A program made the translations under genes and the position numbers. Shown piece after piece: positions 36,787 through 56,919 of a DNA stretch of 64,000 bases. Every line of letters begins with the position of its first letter. Positions within the stretch are counted from its first letter, which is position 1. The notes under the pieces were generated by a model. It made no database searches. It worked only from the letters and a program-made list of their open reading frames with translations, and was not told the DNA's origin. The stretch is from Planktothrix paucivesiculata PCC 9631 (lineage in GTDB: Bacteria; Cyanobacteriota; Cyanobacteriia; Cyanobacteriales; Microcoleaceae), in contig NZ_LR735029.1 in NCBI RefSeq assembly GCF_900009265.2, positions 63,394 through 127,393 on the forward strand. Direction: 5' to 3'.

Positions 36787-36863
36787 GTTAATTTTGCGTT
36801 TGTCAATCCCGACAAAATTAACAATAATATGTTAAAGTACATCCAAGAGTTTTGAAAGCGACA

Positions 36864-37745: not shown

Positions 37746-37747
37746 TA

Positions 37748-38930
37748 AGTAGGTGGTCATAAATAGAGTTAAAATAAGAAATGAAGAAATATCAGAGGAA
37801 TAGTCATGCCACTGAGGTTAAGAATTCAACTAACAGAAGAAGAAAAACAAGAGCTACTAACTCTGTATCAGCAAGAGAAAGTTCCGAAAAGAACAAGGCA
37901 GAGAATAGATATATTAATGTTTAGTGATGGAGGATGGATGGTCTCAAAAATAGCCCAGACTTTAAGGTGTTCAGAAGCCATGGTAAGAAAAACAATAACT
38001 CGATGGATAAATCAAGAAAAAGAAGGATTATTTGATGCTCCTCGTTCGGGAAGAAAACGGAGGTGGAAAGAAGAAGATATAGAATATTTAGAAACTTGTA
38101 TAGAGTCAGATGAAAGAACTTATAATAGCCGTCAACTGTCGGAAAAACTTCTGCGAGAGAGAGCGATCGCACTAAGCGCAGAAAGAATTAGAAAAATCTT
38201 AAAAAAAAAAGACTGGCGCTGGAAAAGAACAAAAGCCAGTTTAAAGAAAAAACAGAATCCCGAAAAAACAGCGAGCAAGAAAAGAGATTTGGAGACGTTA
38301 AAGCGTTATGAAGAAGAGGGTTTGGTCAGATTAAAATATTTAGATGAGGCAGGTTTTTGTTTATGGAGTCCTGTGAGTTACACCTATGTAAAAAAGGGGA
38401 AGCAGAAACAAATAAACCAGACGAAAAAGCGAGGAAAAAGATTGAATGTAATTGGAGTATTAGAAAAAGGAAAAAGTTTTGAGTACGGTTTAAGTTTGTC
38501 AGGAATTACAAGTGAGAATTACATAAAATTTATAGATTGGCAAGCGGAAAAAGCTGAAAAGCATTTTCAAAATACTCGACAAATTACCGTACTGATTCAA
38601 GATAACTACAGTGTCCATAAAAGTCAAAAAATACAAGAAAAAGAAAGGGAGTGGCAAGACAAAAAATTAGAATTTTTCTTCCTGTCTGCTTATAGCCCTG
38701 AATTGAATGAAATCGAACCAGAATGGCATCAATTAAAAACTCATGAACTGGCGGGAAGAATGTTTGAAGATGAATATGATTTGAGCCAAGCTGTGATTCA
38801 AGCCATTGAAGATAGAAACGAAAGAAATGATTGTACCTGCGATCGCTTGCGATTTAATTCCCTGAGTAACTCTCAAGAATTATCCTAAACAATCTTTTTC
38901 TATTATTGACTTTATTTATGACCACCTACT
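37748..38930. mobile_element. IS630-family insertion sequence, intact, 1183 bp
   Basis: Terminal inverted repeats start AGTAGGTGGTCATAAATA on both sides (18 identical outer bases, then similar). The element is flanked by TA (37746-37747 and 38931-38932), the target duplicated by this Tc1/mariner-related family. One full-length transposase gene fills it. The clean ends suggest recent movement into the tnpB gene. Confidence 0.93.
37806..38888 (+). CDS. IS630-family transposase, single full-length frame
   Basis: 360 residues. N-terminal helix-turn-helix (MVSKIAQTLRCSEAMVRKTI), a second DNA-binding part with KKKDWRWKRTKASLKKK, and the DDE catalytic triad: Asp in RLKYLDEAGFCLWSP, Asp in TVLIQDNYSVHKS and Glu in SPELNEIEPEWHQLKT. 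Many IS630 elements need a frameshift to join two frames; here one frame is enough. It moves the element by cut-and-paste at TA sites. Confidence 0.95.
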   Translation: MPLRLRIQLTEEEKQELLTLYQQEKVPKRTRQRIDILMFSDGGWMVSKIAQTLRCSEAMVRKTITRWINQEKEGLFDAPRSGRKRRWKEEDIEYLETCIESDERTYNSRQLSEKLLRERAIALSAERIRKILKKKDWRWKRTKASLKKKQNPEKTASKKRDLETLKRYEEEGLVRLKYLDEAGFCLWSPVSYTYVKKGKQKQINQTKKRGKRLNVIGVLEKGKSFEYGLSLSGITSENYIKFIDWQAEKAEKHFQNTRQITVLIQDNYSVHKSQKIQEKEREWQDKKLEFFFLSAYSPELNEIEPEWHQLKTHELAGRMFEDEYDLSQAVIQAIEDRNERNDCTCDRLRFNSLSNSQELS

Positions 38931-41869: not shown

Positions 41870-42355
41870 GCGATCGCATATTTTAGTTTTAACGAACATT
41901 TATTTAAAAAACTTCATAAAGTTCAGCAATTGTTATGGCAGTTGCGTCAGTCTTCTTTATATTAACTTTTGTCAAAAAAGTCCCTCAACCTAGCTTCTGA
42001 TCAATCTTACAAGCCCCAAATTTTCAACTATCAATATAAAGATTCAGTTAAAGATTCTATAAAGATGATCAGGATTTCCCGAAGTTAAAGGACATCCCTG
42101 ATTAAAGTATAGGATAATCTAAATAAATCCAACGAAAATCGGCAACTTGCTTAACTATCAGAATCCTCTACTCATCTGAAAAGTAATCCCGTTGTCAGAC
42201 CACAGTTTTTGCTCAATTTGAGTTGACTCTTGTGTGCCGGAGTTTCCTTGATCTCTGCCTAAGAAGGTTTGAGACCCTGGCTATAGATCTTTAATACACG
42301 ATTTCAGGGGTTGCTTGATGATGGCTCACCCATAATATTTACTTTCCCTCGAATC
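41870..42355. other. Intergenic region before the HetC-like exporter
   Basis: About 490 bases with no convincing gene. The TGCCA-N3-TGGCA palindrome found at other genes of the island was not found here. An in-frame TTG at 42311 could extend the exporter by 15 residues. Confidence 0.45.
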
Positions 42356-45300
42356 ATGATCAACCCTAATTTGACCTTAACGAATCGGGCGTTTAATTCT
42401 CAGCAGGAAATGTCTCAATCCTTATTAATTTCCAGCTTAGAAGATTTCCTAACACAAATCCCCGTCAAGACCATTAACCCAGCAACTTGGTGTCAACATT
42501 GGCATCTGCAAGCCTTTTCCATGGGAGATCCGATTGAGAATTTATCAATTTCCGACGAAAAAACCGTTCACACCGCACCTAGCCTGGAATCGGTTTATTT
42601 AGTCGTTGAGGGTCGAGTCCGACTCCTGACTTGGGACAAACAGTTAAATCGACAGGTTTCGGTTGCTGTCGTTGAACCCGGTGAAACCTTTGGCGGAGAT
42701 CAGGATTTATCCTATGAAGCGATCGCGGCTAGTGAGGTCATCCTCGCTTCAATTCCCCTGGCTAAAATTCAAACCCAGATCAAACAAATTCCTCAGCTAC
42801 AAACCTATCTACAAACCACCATCGAAAACCGACAACGGTTATTATTCTTCAAAACCCAAACGGACTGGCGACGGTTCACCTGTCACCGACTACAAGAACT
42901 TTTATCCCACTGCACCCAACACCACATCAAGGCTGGAACTCCCCTGATCTCGGCACTTCCAACCAAAGACAGCCGATTTTGGCTGTACCAAGGACAAATT
43001 GCAGGCGCCGATCACGTTCCCCAGGTGGGCGAAAGTTGGGGAGAACCCGATCCCATCCCCCCAGAATGGATCGCCGCCACGGAGTTAGTCGTGTATCAAC
43101 TTCCCGCAGAAACCTTACAGACAACATCCGTACAAGGTGGGAAATCTCTGATACGCAAACAGGAAAAAACCTTTTATCTTCAACCCGCTACGGTGAAACC
43201 CTATCCAGTGATCGCTCCGCCAACGCCCCAAACCCTCAGCTTCCCCAAACCCAAACGTCAACGAGTCTGGCGAGGATTTTGGCAAGGGTATCCTTTTATA
43301 GAACAGCAAAGCTCCTCCGACTGTGGGATCGCTTGTTTGGCGATGATTAGTCAGTATTGGGGAAAATATTTAAGCATTAATAACCTCCGTAATATTTCGG
43401 ATGTAGGGCGATCAGGAGTCTCCTTAAAAAATCTCACTCTCACCTCAGAACGTTTAGGTTATCAAGCGCGACCAGTCCGGGCAAGTTTGAATCGTTTAGA
43501 AACCGAAAAAAACCCTTGGATTGCCCATTGGCAAGGGGATCATTATATTGTGGTCTATAAAGTCCGACGCCATCAAGTGGTGATTGCTGATCCGGGTGAG
43601 GGCAGAAAAACCCTCTCTCGTCAGGCGTTTTTAACCGGATGGACAGGCTATGCTTTACTTTTGGAACCCACCGATCAATTCCATGAACTCCAAGAGCAGA
43701 AACGCTCTCTTGGTCGGTTTGCTGGGGTAATTTGGCCCCATCGGTTTTTGGGATTACAAATTGTTTTGTTATCCCTATTAATTCAGATATTTGGGATTGT
43801 TACTCCCTTATTAACCCAGATTATTTTAGATCGGGTTGTGGTGAATAAAAGTCTCACCAGTTTGAATGTATTTGCCTTGGGGTTGTTATTATTTGGCGTG
43901 TGGAGTTTGGGGTTATCTTCAATTCGAGAATATCTATTGAGTTACTTATCAAATCGTTTGGATTTAACCCTGATTGGTGGGTTTATTAACCACGCCCTAA
44001 AACTTCCTTTAAAGTTCTTTGAGTCCCGCCGCGTCGGGGATATCATTACCCGAGTTCAAGAAAATCAGAAAATTCAACGTTTTCTAGTTAGTCAAATTTT
44101 GTTGTCGGTTTTGAATGTTTTAACAGGGTTTGTGTATTTGGGTTTGATGCTTTATTACAACTGGAAACTAACAGTATTAATTTTAGGAATTGTGCCTTTA
44201 ATTATCATTCTAACCTTAGCAGCAACGCCAATGTTACGGCATATTTCCCGTCAAGTATTTAATGCAGCCGCGGATCAAAATTCAACCTTAGTGGAAATTT
44301 TGAATGGAATTAATACGGTGAAAGCGGTATCGGCGGAACCGGAATTACGCTGGCGTTGGGAAGAAAAATTAACCCAACAGATCAATGTTCAGTTTAAAGC
44401 CCAGAAATTAGGAATTAATTTAGGATTTGTGAGTGGGTTAATTAATTCTATTGGGAGTACGGCTTTACTTTGGTTTGGTGCAACTTTAGTCATTCAAGAT
44501 CAATTAACTATTGGTCAGTTTGTTGCCTTTAATATGATGCAGGGTTATGTAATTAGTCCGATTCTTGCCTTAGTAGGATTATGGGATGAATTGCAAGAAG
44601 TATTAATTTCAGTGGAACGGTTAAATGATGTCTTTGAGCAAGAACCGGAAGAAACCCCGCAAAAACCGTTAATTGTATTACCCAGAATCCAAGGAGAAAT
44701 TCATTTTGATAATGTGACTTTTCGTTATCAAGAAGATGCGGAAACAAATATTCTGCAAAATCTTTCTTTTAAATTTCCTCCGGGTCAAACTATTGCGATT
44801 GTTGGGCGCAGTGGTTCAGGAAAAAGCACCCTAGTTAAATTAATTCAAGGTTTGTACCATCCTACAACCGGAAATATTTATGTAGATGGACATGATATTC
44901 GTCATGTTTCTCCCCCTTCTTTGCGTATACAAATGGGCGTTGTTCCCCAGGATTGTTATTTATTTTCAGGAACACTTTTAGAAAATATTACTCTGTATCG
45001 GGATGAATATACTTTAGATCAAGTTATTGAGGCGGCAAAATTAGCAGAAGTTCATGGATTTATTCAGGGTTTACCCTTAGGATATTATACCAAAGTTGGA
45101 GAACGGGGATCAAGTTTATCGGGAGGACAACGGCAACGAGTAGCGATCGCCAGAGCCTTATTAGGAAGTCCTCGAATTCTAATTTTAGATGAGGCAACCA
45201 GTTCTTTAGATACCGAAAGTGAAAGCCGTTTTCAACGCAATTTAGAACAAATGCAACGCGATCGCACTACGATTATTATTGCCCATCGTCTCTCAACCGT

Positions 45301-45424
45301 GAGAAGTGCCGATTGTATTTTAGTTATAGACAAAGGCATTTTAGTTGAACAAGGCAACCATGAACACCTCATGGCAATTCAAGGACTCTATTATCATTTA
45401 GCCCAGCAACAACTGGCTTTATAG
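42356..45424 (+). CDS. HetC-like peptidase-containing ABC exporter (CNBD + C39 + ABC)
   Basis: 1022 residues from ATG at 42356. Order: a cyclic-nucleotide-binding-like domain (~60-170; YLVVEGRVRLLTW), a less clear second one, a C39 bacteriocin-processing peptidase (~315-440) with Cys323 in SSSDCGIACL, His396 in GDHYIVVY and Asp412 in IADPGEG, a six-helix ABC membrane domain, and an ATPase with Walker A GRSGSGKST (817-825), signature LSGGQRQRVAIARAL and Walker B ILILDEATSSLD. All catalytic residues are present, so it should cleave double-glycine-type leaders and export the cargo. This layout and length match HetC of heterocyst formers, whose gene also lies by hetP. It heads the hlyD-hetP-peptide island. 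Confidence 0.92.
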   Translation: MINPNLTLTNRAFNSQQEMSQSLLISSLEDFLTQIPVKTINPATWCQHWHLQAFSMGDPIENLSISDEKTVHTAPSLESVYLVVEGRVRLLTWDKQLNRQVSVAVVEPGETFGGDQDLSYEAIAASEVILASIPLAKIQTQIKQIPQLQTYLQTTIENRQRLLFFKTQTDWRRFTCHRLQELLSHCTQHHIKAGTPLISALPTKDSRFWLYQGQIAGADHVPQVGESWGEPDPIPPEWIAATELVVYQLPAETLQTTSVQGGKSLIRKQEKTFYLQPATVKPYPVIAPPTPQTLSFPKPKRQRVWRGFWQGYPFIEQQSSSDCGIACLAMISQYWGKYLSINNLRNISDVGRSGVSLKNLTLTSERLGYQARPVRASLNRLETEKNPWIAHWQGDHYIVVYKVRRHQVVIADPGEGRKTLSRQAFLTGWTGYALLLEPTDQFHELQEQKRSLGRFAGVIWPHRFLGLQIVLLSLLIQIFGIVTPLLTQIILDRVVVNKSLTSLNVFALGLLLFGVWSLGLSSIREYLLSYLSNRLDLTLIGGFINHALKLPLKFFESRRVGDIITRVQENQKIQRFLVSQILLSVLNVLTGFVYLGLMLYYNWKLTVLILGIVPLIIILTLAATPMLRHISRQVFNAAADQNSTLVEILNGINTVKAVSAEPELRWRWEEKLTQQINVQFKAQKLGINLGFVSGLINSIGSTALLWFGATLVIQDQLTIGQFVAFNMMQGYVISPILALVGLWDELQEVLISVERLNDVFEQEPEETPQKPLIVLPRIQGEIHFDNVTFRYQEDAETNILQNLSFKFPPGQTIAIVGRSGSGKSTLVKLIQGLYHPTTGNIYVDGHDIRHVSPPSLRIQMGVVPQDCYLFSGTLLENITLYRDEYTLDQVIEAAKLAEVHGFIQGLPLGYYTKVGERGSSLSGGQRQRVAIARALLGSPRILILDEATSSLDTESESRFQRNLEQMQRDRTTIIIAHRLSTVRSADCILVIDKGILVEQGNHEHLMAIQGLYYHLAQQQLAL

Positions 45425-45466
45425 CCTTAATTGCATTACAATTCCTTGACTTTCTGTAAGCTCCTC

Positions 45467-45525
45467 GATCCCCCCTAACCCCTTGAATAAGCGCAAACCG
45501 CGCTTGAAAGTCCTTTAGGGGGATC
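45467..45525. repeat. Inverted repeat / hairpin after the exporter gene
   Basis: Outer arms GATCCCCCCTAA (45467-45478) and TTTAGGGGGATC (45514-45525) enclose AAGCGC-AAACC-GCGCTT. It forms a stable two-part hairpin 43 bases past the exporter stop. May act as terminator; a dispersed palindromic repeat is equally possible. Confidence 0.6.
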
Positions 45526-45610
45526 TGATTTTTGATCAAAAATAAAACAGTCCCAAACCCTACGTTCATCTTCTCCGATCTCCTCTCTTAACAAAACTTT
45601 TCAAACAAAT

Positions 45611-45625
45611 CTGCCAATTTGGCAG
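45611..45625. promoter_or_regulatory. Palindromic operator candidate, site 1 (hlyD-hetP)
   Basis: CTGCCA-ATT-TGGCAG. The core TGCCA-N3-TGGCA is shared with sites at 48120, 48312 and 50787. A -10-like TATAAA starts at 45649, 31 bases from the palindrome centre, so the site would be centred near -41 to -43 of that promoter, the usual place for an activator. The regulator is unknown. Confidence 0.65.
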
Positions 45626-45795
45626 TTTTGAATCAGAAGTTATCCTAGTATAAACACAGAGGATTTTGATAGAAACAAGAACACTGGCTTAGACGTAGGA
45701 TCACTTAAACCCTAGGGACTGGTTATAGGGTGCTTGTATGCGTTTGTTAGTCTCAACCCCTTTTAAGCGGTCGTTACTTTTTGTTAACAGTGGAT

Positions 45796-45824
45796 TTGAC
45801 TTAATTTCATTTAAAAAAAACAAT
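45796..45824 (+). promoter_or_regulatory. Second candidate promoter for hlyD
   Basis: TTGACT, 17-base spacer, AACAAT (4 of 6), ending 41 bases before the hlyD ATG. Independent of the palindrome. Low certainty. Confidence 0.3.
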
Positions 45825-45864
45825 TAAAACACCAACCTTTGTTGGCCAGTTTTTACATAACCCT

Positions 45865-47541
45865 ATGAAACCGTATAAACTGTTCTCCCCTCTGAGTAAA
45901 AACACTGATAATTCAGACTCCCAATTGTCTGTAACGGTGCAGGAGGAATACTTAGAGGATCTGCAATTTAGTCTGGAACACATAGAACAAACCGATCAGA
46001 TTTATGGCGGTATTGCCGGTTCTGTTCCCTTTCCTCCCCTGGCTCCCCCCCAAACAGTCCCCAAAAAATCTCCCCCTCTCCCCAATATTCCCTCGGCGAA
46101 ACCAGACTGGTCAAATGCCTTACAATCTTTGCTGGATCAACCTCCTGCGTCTTTTCCTCTGCAATTAATGTTGGGAGGATTTATTTTTTGTATCGCCTTT
46201 GGTGCTTGGGGATATTTTGGAACCGTTGATGAAGTCGGTCAAGCTAGAGGGAAACTAGCTCCCCAAGGAGAAGTTTACAAAATCCATCCCGTTGAGTTGG
46301 GAAAAGTTTCTCGAATTCCGATTAAAGAAGGGCAAACTGTTAAAAAAGGTCAGGTTTTAGCCGAACTAGATCGACAAATTGCCACCCAAGAATTAGCGGG
46401 ATTACAACAACAACTCACCGCCTTTAAAGCCGAACTGATTCAAAAACAAGGGTTAATTGAACGGATTGATTTAGAAGCCCAAACCCAAGCCGCGATCGCC
46501 ACGGCTCAACTTCAATCTCAACAGGCTAGTATTGAACGAGTTAAAAGCCAAATTACCTCGAATCAGCGATTACTAAGTCAACTCAATTTTGAAGCGTCAG
46601 CAACTCAAAAACGAGTGGAATCTTTACAACCATTGAAGGCAGAAACTCAAACCCTAATTGCCAAATTGCAGGAGGGAGAATTAGCAGCTAAAGAAAGACT
46701 AGAAAGGCTCCAACCTCTGTTAGAAAGTGGTGCTATTTCTAAAGATATATTATTTCAAGCCGAACAAAATTTGCGGGATCAACAAAGAGGCATTGTTCAA
46801 GCGCAATTATCAGAAAAAAATAGTACCCAAGAACTTATTTTTCAAGCGGAACAAGGTTTTCGGGATCGCCAACGATTAATCACCCAATCTCAAGGAGAAT
46901 TAAAACAATATCAAGTTGAAATTGAACGATTAAATGCGGAATTAGCACAGAAACAAGCGGAAGCCAAAACAATTCAAGTAGGAACCCAGCAAAAAATTCA
47001 ACAAACTGAGTTAGAAGTAACTCAATTCAAAGCTAAAATTACAGAAACACAAAATTTAATTACAAGGGCTGAGGCTAAACTTCAAGACAGATATCTCCAT
47101 TCTCCTATTGATGGAGTTATTTCTGCCTTGAATGTGTTTAATGTGGGAGAAGTGATTCAACCCGGACAAACCATTGCTGAAATTACGCCCAAAAATGCAC
47201 CCCTAATTTTAACAGCTAGTCTCCCGAATGAGAAAGCTGGATTTGTGAAAACCGGAATGTCGGTTAAAGTCAAATTTGATGCTTATCCCTATCAAAATTA
47301 TGGGGTATTTGAAGGAACAGTTCGCTCAATTTCACCCGATACAAAAGTTGATCAAGGAGTTGGGCCAGTTTACAAATTAGAAATTTTGTTAAAAAAAGAC
47401 TACGTTTTGCAACGGGATCAGAAAATTCAGTTAAAATCTGGACAAACGGCTAGTGCGGATATTATTATTCGTCGTCGTCGGATTATGGATATTCTACTTA
47501 ATCCTATTCTGCAATTGCAGAAAAATGGCATCGATTTGTAG
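45865..47541 (+). CDS. HlyD-family membrane fusion protein
   Basis: 558 residues. A long cytoplasmic N-terminus with a Pro-rich stretch (~50-75), one transmembrane helix at ~95-118 (LQLMLGGFIFCIAFGAWGYF), a first lipoyl half (KIHPVELGKVSRIPIKEGQTV), a long Gln/Glu/Ala-rich coiled-coil hairpin (~175-410), the second lipoyl half (YLHSPIDGVISALNVFNVGE) and a beta barrel (VKVKFDAYPYQNYGVFEGTV). It bridges an ABC exporter to an outer-membrane channel (TolC-like, not in the window). Partner is the exporter encoded just upstream. The N-terminus is longer than in E. coli HlyD, as in many cyanobacterial peptide exporters. Confidence 0.93.
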   Translation: MKPYKLFSPLSKNTDNSDSQLSVTVQEEYLEDLQFSLEHIEQTDQIYGGIAGSVPFPPLAPPQTVPKKSPPLPNIPSAKPDWSNALQSLLDQPPASFPLQLMLGGFIFCIAFGAWGYFGTVDEVGQARGKLAPQGEVYKIHPVELGKVSRIPIKEGQTVKKGQVLAELDRQIATQELAGLQQQLTAFKAELIQKQGLIERIDLEAQTQAAIATAQLQSQQASIERVKSQITSNQRLLSQLNFEASATQKRVESLQPLKAETQTLIAKLQEGELAAKERLERLQPLLESGAISKDILFQAEQNLRDQQRGIVQAQLSEKNSTQELIFQAEQGFRDRQRLITQSQGELKQYQVEIERLNAELAQKQAEAKTIQVGTQQKIQQTELEVTQFKAKITETQNLITRAEAKLQDRYLHSPIDGVISALNVFNVGEVIQPGQTIAEITPKNAPLILTASLPNEKAGFVKTGMSVKVKFDAYPYQNYGVFEGTVRSISPDTKVDQGVGPVYKLEILLKKDYVLQRDQKIQLKSGQTASADIIIRRRRIMDILLNPILQLQKNGIDL

Positions 47542-47571
47542 AACACTATTTACCAATTAGGAGTACAAGAA

Positions 47572-47961
47572 ATGTCTGCTCAATATTCCTACAATAACTC
47601 GAAAGTCGCTAAGGCGATGAGTGAAGAACAGTTTGAACAAATCCTAGATGCGATTTTATCGGGGAAATATTCTTGGGCTTGTGTTTTAATTTTGCGTTTT
47701 GCTGGATATAACCCACTCCATTATATTCCCTATCGCACCTATAACCGACTAACTAAGGATCATAATTCTAATTCTCAGTCTCAAAGTCATACAACATCTG
47801 TTAAATCAAGTCTTTACGCTGAAGTTACACCTTCTGGTGCTGGCAAAGTTCGGGACTTAACTTATTTAGAACCTATTCCTGAATTGAGTCGGGGGGTTTC
47901 GGGAGGATTTCGGCATTTAGAAGTTGTCGAAAACTTTCCCAGTCCTTGGAAACTGAACTAA
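47572..47961 (+). CDS. hetP: HetP-family protein with double-glycine-like tail motif
   Basis: 129 residues, 30 bases after hlyD and probably cotranscribed; AGGAG lies ~10 bases before the ATG. The conserved HetP core is at ~16-60 ([41 protein letters not shown] minus one). HetP proteins modulate commitment to heterocyst formation in Anabaena, and homologues occur in strains that make no heterocysts. The C-terminal part has KVRDLTYLE (92-100) ... GVSGG (108-112), which aligns with the leader of the nearby peptide 1 (DLNHLE ... IEGA), and then a second copy-like HLEVVE (115-120). This suggests the tail may be read by the C39 peptidase of the exporter. In Anabaena hetC and hetP are neighbours too. 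Confidence 0.88.
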
Positions 47962-48075
47962 ACGACCGATCCAACTTTAACCTTTTGTTCGCCTAAGTTT
48001 AAAATCATTTTTTTGAGTCTGTTTTTCACTTTTTTTAAAAAATCCGCTTTTCCCCCTCTTTTCATCTTTTATAAC

Positions 48076-48101
48076 AACCTGTATTCAAGCAGGTTTTTTT
48101 T
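48076..48101 (+). terminator. Rho-independent terminator after hetP
   Basis: AACCTG (48076-48081), loop TATTCAAG, CAGGTT (48090-48095), then a run of Ts. It closes the hlyD-hetP unit and separates it from the peptide genes. Confidence 0.85.
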
Positions 48102-48119
48102 TGGAAAATATAAAAAAAC

Positions 48120-48132
48120 TGCCAAAATGACA
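48120..48132. promoter_or_regulatory. Palindromic operator candidate, site 2 (one mismatch)
   Basis: TGCCA-AAA-TGACA, one mismatch to the consensus. TACAAT (48154-48159, 5 of 6 to a -10) starts 28 bases from the centre, the same geometry as the other sites. No annotated gene begins directly after it; see the small RNA candidate. Confidence 0.5.
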
Positions 48133-48164
48133 ACAATTATCCTGAAACGTAATTACAATACCAC

Positions 48165-48245
48165 TTATACAACTTTAAATACTAAAGATTGAATAAAACG
48201 AACTCCTCTGAAAGTCATTTCTGATTTTCAGAGCCTTATTTATGA
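48165..48245 (+). ncRNA. Candidate small RNA controlled by operator site 2
   Basis: If TACAAT (48154-48159) is a -10 box, transcription starts near 48166. A hairpin CTCTGAAA (48206-48213)/TTTCAGAG (48226-48233) then precedes CCTTATTT and, after a few bases, a run of Ts. The product would be ~70-85 bases with no coding frame of note. Alternatively this is just a long leader to peptide 1, or a terminator for readthrough. Inference only. Confidence 0.3.
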
Positions 48246-48311
48246 TCATTTTTTCAAAATTAATTCTTTTTCATCTATTGATTTAAACTCCAGAAAAAAA
48301 TTCAACAAATA

Positions 48312-48324
48312 TGCCAAAATGGCA
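48312..48324. promoter_or_regulatory. Palindromic operator candidate, site 3 (peptide 1)
   Basis: TGCCA-AAA-TGGCA, perfect 5-3-5 palindrome, with ACAT on its right as in site 4. TATATT (48347-48352, 5 of 6) starts 29 bases from the centre, which puts the site near -41 of the resulting transcript. Peptide 1 starts at 48410. Confidence 0.7.
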
Positions 48325-48409
48325 ACATAACCCACAAAGGAAAGATTATATTAGAAACATCAACAAACAAAGTTGATACCCAAATAAACGATTATTTAGG
48401 AAGAAAACC

Positions 48410-48637
48410 ATGTTTATTCAAGATTTAAACCATTTAGAAGTCGTTACCGAAGCATCCAATATCGAAGGTGCTCGTCGTCGTGGCAGTGGATCGGCTTTTG
48501 CTGATGCTTATAGCAGTGCCTATGCCAGTGGTAGTAATTTTGCTGCAACTTATACCTCTACTTATACAGATGCATACGTGAGTCGTTGGGGTACTTCGGC
48601 TAGCTCTAATTCTTCTGCTTCTTCGACTGCTTTCTAA
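48410..48637 (+). CDS. Small precursor-like peptide 1, Ser/Ala/Tyr/Thr-rich (likely exporter cargo)
   Basis: 75 residues; AGGAAG precedes the ATG by ~8 bases. Leader-like start DLNHLEVVTEASNIEGA (5-21) ends at Gly-Ala, similar to double-glycine sites and to the HetP tail. The following part starts with ARRRGSGS and is built of Ser, Ala, Tyr and Thr with Tyr recurring every 4-6 residues (DAYSSAYASG, TYTSTYTDAYVS), ending in a Ser tract. No Cys, so no disulfide or lanthionine. The composition suggests a self-assembling or adhesive surface peptide rather than a classical bacteriocin. Own promoter with the palindrome. No maturation enzyme (cyclodehydratase, LanM, protease) is nearby apart from the C39 domain. 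Confidence 0.8.
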   Translation: MFIQDLNHLEVVTEASNIEGARRRGSGSAFADAYSSAYASGSNFAATYTSTYTDAYVSRWGTSASSNSSASSTAF

Positions 48638-48685
48638 TCAAATTACAAATTTAGTTTGGATGTATAGCTAGTTGCAATACCATCG

Positions 48686-48723
48686 CTGAAAGCTAGTTCA
48701 ATTTAATCGTTGACGGCTTTCAG
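48686..48723 (+). terminator. Hairpin between peptides 1 and 2
   Basis: CTGAAAGC (48686-48693) and GCTTTCAG (48716-48723) form an 8-bp stem; followed by TGCTTTGCTATTCTT, weakly T-rich. It could reduce readthrough from peptide 1 to peptide 2, allowing unequal expression from one promoter. Confidence 0.5.
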
Positions 48724-48750
48724 TGCTTTGCTATTCTTGTGGAGAAAATT

Positions 48751-49026
48751 ATGACTCAGATGACCATTAGTGATTTAAGTTTTTGTGAAAATACAGGTAC
48801 TAATGCACAGGCAATAAAAGGAAGTGTTTCTTCGCCTCGTGTTTCTACATCTGTCAGTAAAAATGTAAGTTCCCGTCACAATGCCTTCTTCAATATTGAG
48901 CAGTTAAATAGTGGCTACTTGATATCTGCTGGTTATGCTGTCGCTGTTGCTGCTGGAGTTGCTGCTGCGATTTCTGTTGGTGGAACTACATATACATCGG
49001 TCAATGTTTTTAGCCAAGTGGGTTAA
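48751..49026 (+). CDS. Small precursor-like peptide 2 with hydrophobic Gly/Ala/Val segment (likely exporter cargo)
   Basis: 91 residues from ATG at 48751; GGAG lies 7-10 bases upstream, and this is preferred over an in-frame GTG at 48739. Leader-like DLSFCENTGTNAQAIKGS (8-25) has the same D-to-G distance (16) as the HetP tail and ends Gly-Ser. After a Ser/Val/Arg segment comes a strongly hydrophobic stretch (YLISAGYAVAVAAGVAAAIS) rich in Gly and Ala, which may insert into membranes or stack as beta sheet. It resembles class II bacteriocin or cyanobacterial secreted peptides in layout only. Followed by a strong terminator. Confidence 0.78.
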   Translation: MTQMTISDLSFCENTGTNAQAIKGSVSSPRVSTSVSKNVSSRHNAFFNIEQLNSGYLISAGYAVAVAAGVAAAISVGGTTYTSVNVFSQVG

Positions 49027-49091
49027 CTTCTGGTGAAGTGGTTTTATCCCTCAAGATTCACTTTTTGATTAAGTAAAAATATTCAACACAG

Positions 49092-49128
49092 AAAAGTTCC
49101 TATTTTGTCGGAAATAGGGACTTTTTTA
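49092..49128. terminator. Rho-independent terminator, bidirectional
   Basis: AAAAGTTCCTATTT-tgtcgg-AAATAGGGACTTTT is a long stem with T runs outside. It ends peptide 2 on the plus strand and, before the IS701 insertion, would have ended peptide 3 on the minus strand. Confidence 0.85.
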
Positions 49129-49167
49129 TTTTAAAATTGTTAATCACAAATTAATTGGGATAGCTAG

Positions 49168-50537
49168 TGGGACTTAAACAAAAATTAAGACCAAACAAAG
49201 CCTAAACTAGCTTTATAGGCTGCAAATACATCCCTATTATCCTGGAGCCACTCCACAAATCGAAAAGAAATCGCTGTGCGAAAGGCTTCAAGGGCATCAA
49301 CAAATGTGTTTAAGGGTTTGTTCGCCCATCGACGTCTTAACCCTCCAGTTAAACTATGCCAGAGAATAAAAGTATAGGCACAAAATACCAAAATCCAATG
49401 TCTGATTAGACTTCTTTTATCTCGGACTTGATATTCTTTTAGCCCTAACCAGCCCTTTGCTTCCCTGTAAAAAACTTCTATCCAATTTCTTTGTGAATAG
49501 GTCGTTACTATCCACTCTCCTGTAGCTTTTGAAGCTTCAACATTAGTCATTAAATAATCAATATCACTGGCTTGGTCGAAAGTAGCAGCATTCATGACGA
49601 TGGCTATTACTTTCTTCCCTGCATACTTTGATAATTCAATTTCTTTTGTTGCTACCCACACAGTTTTGGGTTTTTCCAGTTGGAGTTGAATTTCACTAAA
49701 AGCTCCTTGGGGCAACGATTTAGCTAAATTATCTAATCGAGTTTCCTCGGTTTCATCTTCCCCTTTTTTGAGGATTACCTTTCGATTCTTGGCGACTCCC
49801 CCTATATATTTTAATCCTTTTTTCTCTAACTCTTGTAAAAAACTTGTGTTATTTCCATACCCGGCATCTGTTAGCACAATTCCCGGTCGATATCCTCTGT
49901 CTAAGCTCCTCTCTATTAATTCTAATGCTATTTCTGGTTTCTTTTTAAATTCGGGGTCGGCTTTTCCTAAGGGTAATGACTCGGCTTTTTGATATAATTC
50001 TATATCTAATGGTAAGCTTTTTTTGCCATCGTATAGATGGCTCGTTACTGCTACAATTCCATTGTCGGTTTTTCCGATTTCTCCGATGTATTGTCGTCCG
50101 ACTCCATCGGTAAAATTTCCGCTTTTTCGATGTCCTGAATCATCAATAATTAGAGCAAATCCCCGACTAATCTGGGTTTGCTTACACTGATTCATCACCT
50201 CCAGCCGACGCTGATTTAGTTTCATTGCTGACCAAGGAGCTTCGGTTAAAAAGTGGTGTAATCGGTGGTAAGTTACTCCTACGGCGTTATTCGCCATTTG
50301 CGACAGGTTTTTTCGCTCACTTTCTCCCAATAATCCCCCTAAATAGTTCCTAAATTCCCGTTTTTGCGCTTGATGGCTGAAAATATCGTCAAATCGACCA
50401 CACCATCTATCGAAGCAAGGGGGCATTGCTGCCGGGGTTGTCTCTTTCATTCGTTATTCTTGAATATTCTTGAATGTTATGTGCTTGCTATATAATCATT
50501 ATCACCTATTTAGCTCCTTATTTTTGTTTAAGTCCCA
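49168..50537. mobile_element. IS701-family insertion sequence, intact, 1370 bp
   Basis: Terminal inverted repeats begin TGGGACTTAAACAAAAAT at both ends. Flanked by a 4-bp duplication CTAG (49164-49167 and 50538-50541), which fits the YTAR target of IS701 elements. One full-length transposase on the minus strand. It sits in the last codons of the Ser-rich peptide 3 gene. A solo end of the same element is at 3914-3944. Confidence 0.93.
49185..50450 (-). CDS. IS701-family transposase
   Basis: 421 residues, one frame. DDE catalytic residues: Asp in FALIIDDSGHRKSG, Asp in GIVLTDAGYGN and Glu in WIEVFYREAKGWLGLKEYQV. N-terminal region with RWCGRFDDIFSHQAQKREF and TYHRLHHFLTEAPW matches the family. 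It inserts its element with 4-bp duplications. No frameshift or internal stop, so probably active. Confidence 0.95.
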   Translation of the reverse strand: MKETTPAAMPPCFDRWCGRFDDIFSHQAQKREFRNYLGGLLGESERKNLSQMANNAVGVTYHRLHHFLTEAPWSAMKLNQRRLEVMNQCKQTQISRGFALIIDDSGHRKSGNFTDGVGRQYIGEIGKTDNGIVAVTSHLYDGKKSLPLDIELYQKAESLPLGKADPEFKKKPEIALELIERSLDRGYRPGIVLTDAGYGNNTSFLQELEKKGLKYIGGVAKNRKVILKKGEDETEETRLDNLAKSLPQGAFSEIQLQLEKPKTVWVATKEIELSKYAGKKVIAIVMNAATFDQASDIDYLMTNVEASKATGEWIVTTYSQRNWIEVFYREAKGWLGLKEYQVRDKRSLIRHWILVFCAYTFILWHSLTGGLRRRWANKPLNTFVDALEAFRTAISFRFVEWLQDNRDVFAAYKASLGFVWS

Positions 50538-50731
50538 CTAGAGGTTGAAGAAGAACTAGAACTCGATTTAGCCTCACTTCTGTAACCATGAACAGATGAA
50601 ATATTGACAAAAATACTTTGACTAATTTTATTTTCTTGATCATCTGATGTTGAAACTACGCTTTTAGCCTCTGCAATAACTTTACCATCGGGTGAGACTA
50701 TCCGTTTAAATACGACTTTATAGTTAGACAT
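50528..50731 (-). CDS. Small Ser-rich protein (peptide 3), last residues replaced by IS701
   Basis: 67 residues as it stands. Begins MSNYKVVFKRIVSPDGKVIA, continues EAKSVVSTSDDQENKISQSI and ends in a Ser tract. The stop TAA comes from the IS end (TGG GAC TTA AAC read as ...AGT GGG ACT TAA). Removing the IS and one CTAG restores ...TCT AGC TAT CCC AAT TAA, i.e. an end of SSYPN, so only the last residues changed. No double-glycine leader; small phosphoprotein-like composition. Divergent from the gene at 50919, with operator site 4 between them, so likely part of the same regulon. Part of its composition resembles the N-terminus of the 50919 product. Confidence 0.72.
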   Translation of the reverse strand: MSNYKVVFKRIVSPDGKVIAEAKSVVSTSDDQENKISQSIFVNISSVHGYRSEAKSSSSSSSTSSGT

Positions 50732-50782
50732 GATTTTAATACCAACTTATTAGAATGAAGCATAAAATAATTCATTAAGCTA

Positions 50783-50803
50783 ATGTTGCCATTTTGGCAA
50801 CAT
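50783..50803. promoter_or_regulatory. Palindromic operator candidate, site 4 (divergent genes)
   Basis: 21-bp perfect palindrome ATGTTGCCA-TTT-TGGCAACAT, the strongest copy. It lies between divergent peptide 3 (start 50731) and the gene at 50919, so it could control both. TAAACT at 50822 (29 bases from centre; 4 of 6) is a possible -10 on the plus strand. Confidence 0.7.
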
Positions 50804-50918
50804 TTATCAAAATAATTTAGTTAAACTTTAATTTTATAGCTTGTCTTGAAAAAGTTATTAAAGTTACCGACTTTGACAATGATCTTGCTACTACATTACT
50901 TAATTTTCCGTAACAGCA

Positions 50919-51596
50919 ATGAACAACATTACCAACAATTCCAACGATATTCTCGTCATCCTAGATGAGCTTATAAATACAGTATCTCCGACTACCACAA
51001 TTAACTCCCCCGATGCCAATTTTCAGGAGAGTAGTTCCAGTTCTAGTTCCACTGCTATTGTCAATGACATGGGTGCGGGAGGAGCCAGTCAAGCTACAAC
51101 AATTTCCCCAACCGGAGAAGTCCAAAACAGTAGTGAGTCTGTGTTTATTCCTGGTGCTACTTCTAGTCAAGCGACAGCAACAGCTATTAGTGGTACGGAT
51201 ATATTACCAACGACGGAGGCAACAGTAATCATAGAACCGGAAAATCACAACCCACCACCACCGACTCCTATGATTAATGCGGATGTATTTATCTTAAACA
51301 CAAATCCCAATTTCCCCAACACCGACCCCAATTTAGCAGATATAATTACCAACTTTAATGCTGCTGAAGGTGATAAGATTGGATTGTCAGAAAACTTAAT
51401 CGGACAACCGTTAATATTAGAAACCTTTGATTCTAATGCTGATGGAAGTCTTGATGCTACTGTAATTAAACTTGCTAGTAATAGTCAATCTGAAGTTCTT
51501 GGAGTTGTCTTAGGTACAGTTTCTGCACATGGACAAACGACATTAACGCCAACCGATTTCACCATAATTTCTAACAACCTGCTAATATTAAGCTAA
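50919..51596 (+). CDS. Ser/Thr-rich protein with type I secretion-like C-terminus
   Basis: 225 residues. N-terminal helix (NDILVILDELINTVSP), a long Ser/Thr/Ala-rich region with a Ser tract and ISPTGEVQNSSESV, a Pro-rich hinge (NHNPPPPTPM), and a C-terminal ~105-residue domain: DVFILNTNPN ... LADIITNFNAAEGDKIGLSE ... FDSNADGSLDATVI ... LGVVLGTVSAHGQTTLTPTDF. This last part is the layout (I-x-DF-x-x-x-x-GD-x-I-x-L) seen at the end of RTX/peptidase-type substrates of type I secretion. It may be exported by the HetC-like/HlyD machine or another HlyB system. No GGXGXDXXX repeats. Starts an operon with the isomerase 21 bases downstream. Confidence 0.75.
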   Translation: MNNITNNSNDILVILDELINTVSPTTTINSPDANFQESSSSSSSTAIVNDMGAGGASQATTISPTGEVQNSSESVFIPGATSSQATATAISGTDILPTTEATVIIEPENHNPPPPTPMINADVFILNTNPNFPNTDPNLADIITNFNAAEGDKIGLSENLIGQPLILETFDSNADGSLDATVIKLASNSQSEVLGVVLGTVSAHGQTTLTPTDFTIISNNLLILS

Positions 51597-51617
51597 GAAA
51601 GCTGGGGTTGAATAAAA

Positions 51618-52358
51618 ATGATCATGGCGCAACTTTCCAAGGGTTCACTTGATGATGAGGAAATTATTGGCTTCCTGAAACAAAACCTGGAATTCAAGGA
51701 AGTCTATCAGAAAATTTTGTCTCAAAAAGTTATCAATCAAGTTGCTGAGGAAAGAGGTATTATTGTAACCGATGAGGAAATTCAAAACCAAGCTAACCAA
51801 CAACGTTATGAAAAACGCTTAGAAAAAGCGGCGGATACTTTAGCTTGGTTAGCTGACCAAATGATCACTTCCGATGACTGGGAAGCGGGAATTCGAGAAC
51901 GTCTTTTAGCCGAAAAATTAGCAGAATCTTTATTTGCTAAAGATGTCGAAAAATACTTTGTTCAAAATCGCTTGAGTTTTGAGCAAGTTTCATTATATCA
52001 AATTATTGTTCCCTACGAGCGCTTGGCTAGGGAATTATTTTATCAAATAGAAGAAGAAGAAATCAGTTTTTATCACGCCGCCCATTTATATGATATTGAC
52101 CCCCGACGTCGTGAACAATGCGGCTATGAAGGTAAACTTTATCGTTGGGGATTAAAAGCGGATTTTGCAGCAATTGTATTTGGTTCAAACCCAGGAGAAA
52201 TATTAAGTCCTGTCAAAACTGACCAAGGTTATCATCTAATCTTAGTTGAGGAGTTTATTCAAGCTGAATTGACCCCTCAACGTTATCAAGAGATTCTTCA
52301 GAAACTATTTAAAGACTGGTTAGCTAGTGAATTAAATTATCGGCTATATAACACTTAA
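51618..52358 (+). CDS. PpiC/SurA-like peptidyl-prolyl isomerase (parvulin)
   Basis: 246 residues (a second ATG at 51624). N-terminal SurA-like helical part (QLSKGSLDDEEIIGFLKQNL, VINQVAEERGIIVTDEEIQ) and a C-terminal parvulin fold (~130-225; SFYHAAHLYDIDPRR, GEILSPVKTDQGYHLILVEEF). No signal peptide is seen, so it acts in the cytoplasm or travels by the exporter. Such isomerases are recurrent companions of cyanobacterial peptide-exporting HlyB/HlyD loci, where they may keep cargo unfolded or assist its maturation. Directly downstream of the Ser-rich protein, same operon. The active-site GGxLG-type motif is replaced by CGYEGKLYRWG. Confidence 0.85.
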   Translation: MIMAQLSKGSLDDEEIIGFLKQNLEFKEVYQKILSQKVINQVAEERGIIVTDEEIQNQANQQRYEKRLEKAADTLAWLADQMITSDDWEAGIRERLLAEKLAESLFAKDVEKYFVQNRLSFEQVSLYQIIVPYERLARELFYQIEEEEISFYHAAHLYDIDPRRREQCGYEGKLYRWGLKADFAAIVFGSNPGEILSPVKTDQGYHLILVEEFIQAELTPQRYQEILQKLFKDWLASELNYRLYNT

Positions 52359-53493: not shown

Positions 53494-55053
53494 ATGAACC
53501 CACCTATCCGCCCCATACAAATTGAAGAACCCGAGGGTCAAGTACCCCTAAACTCTCCTTTATATATTGAACGTCCTCCGATTGAAACCGACTGTTATCA
53601 GGCTTTAATACGACCTACAGCCTTAATTCGGATTAAAGCACCTCGACAAATGGGAAAAAGCTCCCTCATGCACCGAATTCTCCACTATGGAACTCAACAA
53701 GGATATCACACAGCTTGTTTGAACTTTCAGTTAGCAGACTATGAATTTTTTAGTAATTTGGATCAATTTTTACAATGGTTTTGTGCCAGTATTGCCGAAG
53801 AATTAGGCTTTGATGACCAACTCGAAGAATATTGGAAAGGGGTAATTGGCAGTAAAAATAAATGTACCAAATATTTACAACGATATTTACTGGCTCAACT
53901 CAATTCTCCGTTAGTTTTAGGATTAGATGAAGTCGATTTAATCTTTCAACACCCTGAAATTGCCGTTGATTTTTTTGGACTATTAAGAGCTTGGCATGAA
54001 CGCAGCAAAAATGAACCGACTTGGCAGAATATTCGCTTAGTTATTTCCCATTCTAAAGAAGTTTATATTCCCCTGAATATTAATCAATCTCCCTTTAATG
54101 TGGGATTACCCGTGGAACTTCCCGAACTCACCCCGGAACAAATTCAAGATTTAATTAACCGTCATGGATTGGAATTTTCCGAGGCTCAATTCACCGCTTT
54201 ATTAGATATGATTGGCGGACATCCCTATTTAGTCAGAGTGGCACTCTATCAAATCGCTAAAGATAAAATTACCTTAGAAGAATTTCTCCAAACTGCCCCC
54301 ACAGAAGCCGGATGTTACTATGATCATTTACGGCGTCATTTATCCAATTTAGAAAAGAATGAAGAATTAAATCATATTTTAAGACAAGTAATTAATAGTG
54401 ATTATCCCGTTTCTATTCCTTCGGCTGAAGCCTTTAAACTGAGGAGTATGGGATTAGTTAAATTTCAAGGAAATGACGTTTCACCGTTATGTAATCTCTA
54501 TCGCATTTATTTTAAAGAAAAATTAGGACAATCCTCAAAAACTCCCCTTCAAGAAACGACATTAGCCGCGATTATGTTCACAGATGTTGTGGATTCAACA
54601 CCCCAGATGGAACGCAATCAAAAACAGATGTTAGAGTGTTTAAAACGGGATTTTACTCGGATGCGAGACTTAATTCGTCAACACAACGGACAAGAACTTA
54701 AAAGTATGGGGGATGGATTATTACTCTATTTTAGTTCTGCGGTAGAAGCGGTGCGTTGTGGGCTAGAAATTCAACGAGCTTTAGCCGCCGCCGAAATTAG
54801 TCCAGAAACCCGTTTAAAACATCGGATTGGGATTCATGTTGGGGATGTATTTTTAAGCGGTGGAGATGTGTTAGGAACAGGAGTTAATATTGCTTCCAGG
54901 TTACAATCTCAAGCCATGCCAGGAGAACTTTGTATTTCTCAAACGGTCTATGATGTGGTTAAAAATCATTTATCCTTGCAAATCACTTATTTAGGAGAAC
55001 GTAAACTTAAAGGTATTGAATCTCCGATGCCTTTATATCGAGTTATCCCTTAA
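53494..55053 (+). CDS. AAA-like ATPase fused to a class III nucleotidyl cyclase
   Basis: 519 residues. N-terminal AAA_35-type domain (~1-340) with P-loop [10 protein letters not shown] (GKSS at 54-57) and Walker B LVLGLDEVDLIF. C-terminal cyclase (~350-519) with metal Asp in AAIMFTDVVDST, KSMGDGLLLYF (purine-binding Lys and second metal Asp), and VNIASRLQ (transition-state Asn/Arg). Most likely makes cAMP. Opens a same-strand pair with the next AAA-like gene (16 bases apart). The exporter of the island has a cyclic-nucleotide-binding domain, so a link is possible but not shown. Confidence 0.9.
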   Translation: MNPPIRPIQIEEPEGQVPLNSPLYIERPPIETDCYQALIRPTALIRIKAPRQMGKSSLMHRILHYGTQQGYHTACLNFQLADYEFFSNLDQFLQWFCASIAEELGFDDQLEEYWKGVIGSKNKCTKYLQRYLLAQLNSPLVLGLDEVDLIFQHPEIAVDFFGLLRAWHERSKNEPTWQNIRLVISHSKEVYIPLNINQSPFNVGLPVELPELTPEQIQDLINRHGLEFSEAQFTALLDMIGGHPYLVRVALYQIAKDKITLEEFLQTAPTEAGCYYDHLRRHLSNLEKNEELNHILRQVINSDYPVSIPSAEAFKLRSMGLVKFQGNDVSPLCNLYRIYFKEKLGQSSKTPLQETTLAAIMFTDVVDSTPQMERNQKQMLECLKRDFTRMRDLIRQHNGQELKSMGDGLLLYFSSAVEAVRCGLEIQRALAAAEISPETRLKHRIGIHVGDVFLSGGDVLGTGVNIASRLQSQAMPGELCISQTVYDVVKNHLSLQITYLGERKLKGIESPMPLYRVIP

Positions 55054-55068
55054 TTTTAACCCAAAATC

Positions 55069-56772
55069 ATGGCTGAAGCATCTCCGAATTTTTCCTATCA
55101 AGTGGGGGGAAGTTTACCCGTTAATTCCCCCACTTATATTTATAGACAAGCAGATGAACAATTTTATCAGGGGTTAAAAGCGGGAGAATTTTGTTATGTT
55201 TTGAACTCCCGACAAATGGGAAAATCCAGTTTACGAGTGCAAACGATGCAACGCTTACAAGCAGAAAATATTGTTTGTGCTGCGATTGATTTAACGGCTA
55301 TTGGTACATCTGATATTACGGCTGAAGAATGGTATGCCGGGTTAATTGATAGTATTGTCAGTAGTTTAAATCTATATGATGATTTTGATTTAGATGAATG
55401 GTGGACTAAAAATCAACGCCTTTCCAATGTCAGACGATGGAATAAGTTTATTGAATCGATTTTACTATCTGCTATTGATCAAAAAATTGTGATTTTTATT
55501 GATGAAATTGATAGTATTTTAAGGCTAAATTTCAATGTAGATGATTTTTTTGCCTCCATTCGAGCCTGTTATAATAAACGGGCAGAACAACCGGATTTTA
55601 ACCGTTTAACTTTTGCTTTATTAGGGGTAGCCACTCCTAATGATTTAATTAATAGTCAATATCACAGCACCCCCTTTAATATTGGTCAAGCGATTGAATT
55701 AACAGGTTTTCAATTTCAAGAAGCGAAACCCTTAGCGTTAGGATTTATTCAAAAATCTGCTAACCCAGAAATTGTGTTACAGGAAGTTTTAAACTGGACA
55801 GGGGGACAACCCTTTTTAACCCAAAAAGTTTGTCAGTTAGTGCGGTTAAGTGAGGAAATTATTCCTGAAGGAGAGGAGAAAAAATGGGTTGAGAAGTTAG
55901 TGCGATCGCGTATCATAGAAAATTGGGAAGTTCAGGACGAACCGGAACATTTAAGAACAATCCGCGATCGTTTATTATGGGAAAGTGAGCGTTCTGAAGA
56001 ACTATTAGAATTATATTCTCAAATTTTAACCTCTGAATCAACCCTTTGCAAAGAAACCAAGGAATATTTGGAATTACGATTAACCGGAATTGTGATTAAA
56101 TCTAAGGAAAAAGTCGCAATCTGTAATTACATATATTTAGAAATATTTAATTTATCATGGCTAGAAAATTTAGGAATCATTACGAAAAAAGAATTTTTAT
56201 CTACAATCTATAAAAATGTTTTTAAAATCTCTCAAATCGATTTGTTTAAAAATTTATCAAGTCCAGAAATCATTCAAATTATTAATAACTCTAAACTCTT
56301 AAAAGATATTAGTTTTAATCCCACAACTTTACCGAATCACATAGAAATGGGTATACAAAAATTTCAAAAAGCTTATGCGAACCAAGATATTAACCTCCTG
56401 AATTCATTGATTTCTAAAAATTTTAGTGGAAGTTTATGTGGATCTATCTCCAAATCAACACTAATTGATTTTTACAAAAATTTCTTTATTTACTTTCCCC
56501 CCGAATCTAATCTCAGATTAATTGTTGATAAAATTTATATTTTAGATGAATCAGAACTATTTTTAAGATTGATTGTTAGTTTTGTTTTAAAGGGTTATAA
56601 TCGGGACAGACAATGGTTCTCTAATCAGTTTGATTCAGGTGATTTTTATATCGAAATCGGCTTTGAACCTGCTAATAAACACTGGGAAATTTTACGTTTA
56701 GATAAGGTTTATTGGCAGGCTAAAAAATTTATTAATGATGGAGATTGGTTTAATCCTAATCTTCATCTATAG
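55069..56772 (+). CDS. AAA-like ATPase with C-terminal NTF2/SnoaL-like domain
   Basis: 567 residues, probably cotranscribed with the cyclase gene. Shared N-terminal module (~1-360) with [15 protein letters not shown]-loop [12 protein letters not shown] (GKSS 51-54), Walker [13 protein letters not shown] and [12 protein letters not shown]. The last ~150 residues (KFQKAYANQDINLLNSLISK ... DFYIEIGFEPANKHWEILRL) look like an NTF2/SnoaL-like cone fold, which would serve as ligand sensor or effector. The N-terminal half is paralogous to the 56920-60864 product. Role unknown; STAND-like switch inferred. Confidence 0.82.
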   Translation: MAEASPNFSYQVGGSLPVNSPTYIYRQADEQFYQGLKAGEFCYVLNSRQMGKSSLRVQTMQRLQAENIVCAAIDLTAIGTSDITAEEWYAGLIDSIVSSLNLYDDFDLDEWWTKNQRLSNVRRWNKFIESILLSAIDQKIVIFIDEIDSILRLNFNVDDFFASIRACYNKRAEQPDFNRLTFALLGVATPNDLINSQYHSTPFNIGQAIELTGFQFQEAKPLALGFIQKSANPEIVLQEVLNWTGGQPFLTQKVCQLVRLSEEIIPEGEEKKWVEKLVRSRIIENWEVQDEPEHLRTIRDRLLWESERSEELLELYSQILTSESTLCKETKEYLELRLTGIVIKSKEKVAICNYIYLEIFNLSWLENLGIITKKEFLSTIYKNVFKISQIDLFKNLSSPEIIQIINNSKLLKDISFNPTTLPNHIEMGIQKFQKAYANQDINLLNSLISKNFSGSLCGSISKSTLIDFYKNFFIYFPPESNLRLIVDKIYILDESELFLRLIVSFVLKGYNRDRQWFSNQFDSGDFYIEIGFEPANKHWEILRLDKVYWQAKKFINDGDWFNPNLHL

Positions 56773-56919
56773 CTTGATTAGAATGATTAATTTATACCGT
56801 CGCATAATGTTTACCTCACTAGCTTGGAAATTTCTATAACTCCTTTGGGATTCCTATATCAAAGCATTTATATAACTAATTAAAATTGACTATATCTATT
56901 ATTAATCATGAACTAATGA

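Follow-up and report, generated by a model that had tools for sequence, protein, structure and literature searches.

The 64,000-nucleotide stretch of Planktothrix paucivesiculata PCC 9631 analyzed here (contig NZ_LR735029.1, positions 63,394 to 127,393; hereafter, the window) carries an island in which a HetC-like exporter, made of a C39 peptidase and an ATP-binding cassette (ABC) transporter, stands with an HlyD adaptor, a HetP-family protein, a PpiC isomerase, and small peptides with double-glycine (GG) leaders. We consider it probable that this island trims leaders and exports peptides, with HetP likely being a further cargo. All genes listed by an earlier sequence-only reading of this DNA are present at their positions and in the same order, and its view of the exporter as complete holds, the expected catalytic residues of the C39 and ABC parts being all in place. 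A profile search gave 136.5 bits for Peptidase_C39, 164.9 for ABC_membrane, and 126.4 for ABC_tran, and the protein has Cys338, His411, and Asp427 in C39 together with Walker A, LSGGQ, Walker B, and the H-loop, which we take to be its catalytic elements. The C39 domain with its Cys, His, and Asp lies ahead of the ABC membrane domain and the ATPase, as in peptidase-containing ABC transporters. An extra 300 residues are present at the N terminus, where the match to cNMP_binding (PF00027) reached 26.5 bits for a cut-off of 27.5. A gap of 440 bp separates the exporter from hlyD, and one of 30 bp separates hlyD from hetP.

The comparison of neighborhoods across cyanobacteria proposed by the sequence-only reading revealed a gene order that is more than chance and recurs in 11 family-level groups. 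HetP was found in 64 of the 386 genomes of our phylum sample, and 145 regions fetched around its matches yielded, with the window, 147 distinct HetP open reading frames (ORFs). Of these, 26 are HlyD-linked, with hlyD directly ahead of hetP, and come from 11 family groups; 42 are orthologous loci of one family group, f6; and 79 are solitary paralogues. The f6 group also holds 77 of the solitary paralogues and 2 of the HlyD-linked loci. We take f6 to be the heterocyst-forming family because its named loci belong to Anabaena, Nostoc, Fischerella, Calothrix, Scytonema, and similar genera. Outside f6, hlyD directly precedes 24 of 26 HetP ORFs, and among the 26 HlyD-linked loci, 22 have HetC upstream and 22 have PpiC downstream. 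The exporter, HetP, and GG peptides occur together across the phylum.

Both small ORFs of the island begin with ISDL-type leaders, and 45 small ORFs sharing the leader M-I-I-S-D-L-N-Y/H-L/V-E...G-G/A/S were obtained in 21 of the 26 HlyD-linked loci. When the leader start was searched phylum-wide as a DNA pattern, 39 matches were found in 23 of the 386 genomes, compared to 2 matches for the backwards control. HetP is carried by 21 of these 23 genomes, the other two having one match each; hence, this type of leader is almost restricted to genomes with HetP. Some of the matches in heterocystous genomes lie close to a second exporter. As a side observation, many heterocystous loci (L055, L059, L064, L065, L073, L081) have, ~5 to 6 kb 3' of hetP, another C39-ABC exporter accompanied by an HlyD of its own.

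The sequence-only reading had overlooked two features that tie HetP to these peptides, a cargo leader in HetP itself and a shared palindrome. Residues 92 to 112 of the island HetP read KVRDLTYLE-10-GG, thus fitting, with V for I, the motif KIxDLxYLEx10GG that Wang et al. noted in HetP, which they considered a possible precursor (PMC3140520). A profile built from the 45 cargo leaders alone scored at least 5 bits on 22 of 25 HlyD-linked HetP tails and on none of 250 shuffled tails. Tails were long enough for this test in 25 of 26 HlyD-linked, 42 of 42 orthologous f6, and 69 of 79 solitary proteins; the HlyD-linked class is defined independently of the tail, and membership of the orthologous f6 class required either hetC upstream or a tail matching a regular expression, so that tail statistics of the f6 orthologous and solitary classes hold partly by construction. 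Among 43 HetP homologues, D95, L96, G111, and G112 are conserved at 90% or more. In a survey of 146 HetPs (the 120 best-listed of 2148 homologues and the 26 HlyD-linked proteins), the motif and GG were found in 135, followed by a median of 17 residues (range, 6 to 53). Aromatic residues make up 17% of these post-GG ends versus 1.2% of the linker. At 85 to 90% identity in the HetP domain (1618 pairs, 103 proteins), median identity is 0.43 for the leader and 0.13 for the post-GG end, compared to 0.12 for shuffled peptides. Such quick change with the composition kept fits a recognized or secreted short peptide, as aromatic residues would not survive plain drift. Altogether, HetP itself is likely a further cargo of the exporter.

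The shared palindrome, TGCCANNNTGGCA, was counted as exact matches in a span reaching from 2.5 kb 5' to 6 kb 3' of hetP. It is present in 19 of 26 HlyD-linked loci (47 sites), in 38 of 42 orthologous f6 loci (48 sites), and in 2 of 79 solitary loci (2 sites); pooled, 57 of 68 exporter-linked or orthologous loci have it, versus 2 of the 79 solitary paralogues. Read backwards, it gave no site in the first two classes and one in the solitary class. In the genome of PCC 9631, three of the five sites with a W3 centre sit in the island. Across loci, 24 sites lie 64 to 180 bp ahead of GG-peptide starts, in 16 loci, and the match to TATAAT peaks 22 nt past the palindrome (mean of 3.96 of 6; 1.2 to 3.0 at other offsets), suggesting that its centre lies near -41. 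This is the usual position of a class II activator. The succession of palindrome, 64 to 94 nt, and leader start was met at 12 places in 10 of the 386 genomes; each of these genomes has HetP, every place falls within these loci, and the control gave none. With two mismatches allowed, counts in the window are at chance (5 found versus 5.86 expected); chance was considered in view of such window and genome totals and was dropped given the clustering in the island and the strong contrasts between loci. In the open-access literature, the palindrome as a literal string appeared only in two unrelated papers. Of 80 named heterocystous loci (the best 80 of 376 matches to a heterocystous HetP alignment), 67 also have the element no more than 1.5 kb 3' of hetP. 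A conserved small peptide gene behind the palindrome of heterocystous hetP loci was considered and dropped, as no conserved ORF was seen. In heterocystous hetP loci (L055, L069, L081, and others), the palindrome and a TATAAA-like box are followed by a conserved ORF-less stretch, perhaps a noncoding RNA; seven such loci searched in Rfam gave no match.

We propose a model in which an activator would bind TGCCANNNTGGCA at about -41 and jointly switch on hlyD, the peptide genes, and the Ser-rich/T1SS-like gene pair (T1SS, type I secretion system). The C39 domain would recognize the leader (M)-I-I-S-D-L-N-Y/H-L/V-E...GG and cut it after GG (or GA, GS), and the peptide would leave by way of HlyD and a TolC-like protein encoded elsewhere. 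Three TolC-like OEP proteins of the host, two with good scores and one with a weak score, lie on other contigs. Export by the island is supported by analogy with PteB of Synechococcus, which secretes the GG-motif EbfG proteins efficiently only with its peptidase cysteine in place (PMC4997328).

The history of the island bears on heterocyst formation. The host had been called apparently non-heterocystous; in its assembly (6.15 Mb, 97.5% complete), nifH was not found, the sole full-length Fer4_NifH match being ChlL (485 bits for TIGR01281 versus 222 for nifH), which agrees with that description. HetR is present in the genome, and Planktothrix accounts for most of the named best relatives of the island HetP (85 to 91% identity). 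In the 42 orthologous f6 loci, hetC lies upstream in 13 and hlyD, by the same test, in none; two further f6 loci, counted as HlyD-linked, retain HetC-HlyD-HetP. In the 80 named loci, a hetC of at least 900 amino acids (aa) is upstream of hetP in 45 and shortened HlyD ORFs (265 to 412 aa versus 558 in the island) in 10; hlyD is thus either truncated or missing in these 80 loci. A tblastn search revealed hlyD-like stretches upstream of hetP in 26 of the 80 (17 at E < 1e-8; the weakest with E up to 0.001), and 23 of these 26 loci also have upstream hetC sequence. In the clearer remnants, both HlyD ends match and the middle is missing, presumably where the periplasmic hairpin is expected. PpiC is still found 3' of hetP in many heterocystous loci. 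In a search that scored two candidates per genome, most second, outgroup-side exporters also have hlyD. Because of these remnants and of hlyD at most second exporters, linkage to hlyD seems to predate the developmental pair without it. Two quick trees were made without a mixture model, one of 51 of 65 exporters and one of 41, the smaller set omitting most of the second exporters along with two long hetC rows and three distant rows. In both, the hetC genes that lack hlyD group as a single clade (100) adjoining two f6 exporters with hlyD (94 and 90, respectively). Given the hlyD pieces, the hetC-hetP switch pair of heterocyst formers likely evolved from a peptide exporter that lost hlyD. As separate observations, several heterocystous genomes (L051, L069, L199, L212, L220, L232) have the hetC upstream of hetP cut down to a short C39/ABC-like fragment, and in some others hetC was not seen upstream of hetP, the rest of the genome not having been searched for it.

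Several points speak against these interpretations. Cleavage and export in the island are themselves predictions from the sequence, and no leader ORF was obtained in 5 of the 26 HlyD-linked loci. The exact palindrome was not found within the counted span in 7 of the 26, and its total in the host genome is not raised (7 exact N3 sites versus 5 backwards), only its clustering being so. The nesting of hetC within the exporters suggested by the quick trees is not upheld by the approximately unbiased test, under which a clade of all exporters that excludes hetC is not rejected (p = 0.575; 41-exporter set). The ancestral export role proposed by the sequence-only reading consequently stands in outline on the hlyD linkage (remnants and second exporters), the tree alone being no proof of it. 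In Anabaena, a C-terminal fusion of HetP to green fluorescent protein (GFP) appears functional, with a location close to the poles, and surplus HetP makes up for deletion of the hetC peptidase (PMC4133259); both results argue against HetP processing being essential there. Finally, GG is kept with hetC in 11 of 13 orthologous f6 loci versus 5 of 29 without hetC (p = 6e-5, with related rows), and this association is weak in the 80 named loci (38 of 45 versus 23 of 35; p = 0.066). The loss of GG following that of hetC was therefore dropped as proof of processing.

It is possible, though we doubt it, that HetP is an adaptor or regulator instead of a cargo, its tail docking on C39 and gating export or its domain acting on TGCCANNNTGGCA promoters. 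Conservation is much higher in the HetP domain than in the tail; palindrome, leader type, and HetP co-occur; and the Anabaena HetP-GFP remains in the cell, while surplus HetP makes up for the deleted hetC peptidase (PMC4133259). Moreover, no other conserved regulator gene was recognized beside the exporters, by eye and without a domain search, among ORF families present in at least three family groups. A pure docking motif, however, leaves unexplained why the short aromatic end diverges as much as shuffled peptides do, and the structure model of HetP (mean predicted local distance difference test score of 54.7; low confidence, three helices only) gives no DNA-binding fold and was too weak for any fold assignment, which was dropped.

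It is rather unlikely that the island is an ordinary microcin-type bacteriocin cluster whose small peptides kill competitors, HetP being another precursor as in Wang et al. The cyanobacterial bacteriocin clusters described there have a long C39-ABC protein with a CAP_ED domain, HlyD, SurA/rotamase, HetP-like proteins, and GG precursors, with an M16 peptidase named for group II (PMC3140520). The island fits groups I and II in its HlyD, rotamase, GG precursors, and adjacent HetP motif and in a long C39-ABC protein, whose N-terminal extension matches the nucleotide-binding-like domain just below the cut-off; its peptide cores are variable. Yet no immunity gene was recognized by eye among the genes common to the loci, and the tested GG-peptide system of Synechococcus serves biofilm formation (PMC4997328). 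In the sections of Wang et al. available to us, the HetP motif is not compared with neighboring cargo leaders, and the palindrome, the aromatic post-GG ends, and hlyD decay are not mentioned (PMC3140520). These four elements (hlyD remnants, shared-leader test, aromatic ends, palindrome) were not met in the open-access literature searched, nor was the near restriction of the leader type to genomes with HetP. The statement of the sequence-only reading that the peptide export system is undescribed is very improbable and refuted as worded: although no open-access paper was found joining hlyD loss, a cargo-type HetP leader, and the palindrome, the cluster type has been in print since 2011 (PMC3140520) and the HetP-type precursor was repeated by Micallef et al. 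in 2015 (PMC4558948).

Compared to other systems, HetC-HetP of Anabaena/Nostoc PCC 7120 share with the island the two families and their order, the C39 and ATPase residues, the HetP domain, and often the GG tail, but hetC there has no hlyD beside it and the pair is needed for heterocysts (PMC10986499, PMC4133259), whereas the island has hlyD between hetC and hetP, leader peptides, and no nifH found in its host. A 2024 paper on HetC also describes hetC without a nearby membrane-fusion gene, unlike homologues elsewhere, states that the HetC substrate is unknown, and reports no double-glycine peptide gene near hetC (PMC10986499). PteB-EbfG of Synechococcus elongatus resembles the island in its C39 exporter and secreted small GG-motif proteins, with a HetC-like domain organization according to its authors; it differs in that the cores are unrelated per that paper, and HetP is not reported in the part seen, the comparison being one of anatomy (PMC4997328). 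NHLP/N11P-type export clusters of ribosomally synthesized and posttranslationally modified peptides also combine C39-ABC, HlyD, and GG leaders, but NHLM-type models fall far below their cut-offs on the island (564 versus 853 bits for TIGR03796; 69 versus 156 for TIGR03794) and the leaders, by reading, are of another type.

A speculative scenario, which we hold only tentatively, would be that HetP descends from a secreted-signal precursor (HetP domain, C-terminal GG leader, short aromatic fast-changing peptide) cut and exported by HetC-HlyD with matrix-like peptides that share this leader, in one TGCCANNNTGGCA regulon, and that heterocyst formers inherited this cassette, lost HlyD, and kept HetC/HetP as a commitment switch. 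The exporter clusters of non-heterocystous species point to the HetP tail as a candidate substrate of HetC, which, if true, would be nearby and testable, and to an adaptor-losing exporter as the origin of hetC-hetP. The origin of heterocyst commitment and the export substrate of HetC thereby become open to direct experiments, and the TGCCANNNTGGCA element offers a DNA handle for fishing the regulator.

Features of the island, with positions in the window (+ and -, strands)
Feature	Position	Strand	Remarks
HetC-like exporter: weak cNMP-binding domain, C39 peptidase, ABC transporter	42311..45424	+	1037 aa from TTG; first in-frame ATG at 42356
Palindrome TGCCAATTTGGCA	45612..45624		upstream of hlyD
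HlyD periplasmic adaptor, 558 aa	45865..47541	+	TIGR01843, 259.6 bits (cut-off, 208.65)
HetP-family protein, 129 aa	47572..47961	+	NF037966, 116.5 bits (cut-off, 45)
Leader-like stretch of HetP tail, residues 92-112	47845..47907	+	motif and profile comparison
HetP end past GG, 17 residues	47908..47958	+	candidate mature peptide
Terminator-like hairpin and T run 3' of hetP	48078..48102	+	by eye
Palindrome TGCCAAAATGACA	48120..48132		one mismatch
Palindrome TGCCAAAATGGCA	48312..48324		85 bp ahead of peptide 1 start
-10-like TATATT	48347..48352	+	22 nt past palindrome TGCCAAAATGGCA
Small peptide 1, 75 aa	48410..48637	+	leader MFIQDLNHLEVVTEASNIEGA; Ala/Ser/Thr-rich core
Small peptide 2, 95 aa from GTG	48739..49026	+	in-frame ATG at 48751; leader-like MTISDLSF...IKGS
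IS701-like element (IS, insertion sequence)	49164..50541		32-nt inverted ends; CTAG at both outer ends; named by resemblance
IS701-like transposase	49185..50450	-	
Ser-rich small protein	50528..50731	-	stop codon falls within IS end
Palindrome TGCCATTTTGGCA	50787..50799		between divergent Ser-rich and T1SS-like genes
T1SS-like protein, 225 aa	50919..51596	+	T1SS C-terminal match subthreshold, 15.2 bits (cut-off, 17.6)
PpiC/SurA-type peptidyl-prolyl isomerase, 246 aa	51618..52358	+	Rotamase, 41.5 bits (cut-off, 21.7)

The island is split by the IS701-like element, absent from the sequence-only reading, and the Ser-rich ORF now terminates inside its inverted repeat. Upstream of the island, the window holds two transposase-like genes at 36852 to 38888 (TnpB-like and IS630-like by reading), and downstream, at 53494 to 60864, three consecutive AAA/STAND-like ATPase genes, by reading one with an adenylate-cyclase-like end and one with WD40-like repeats.

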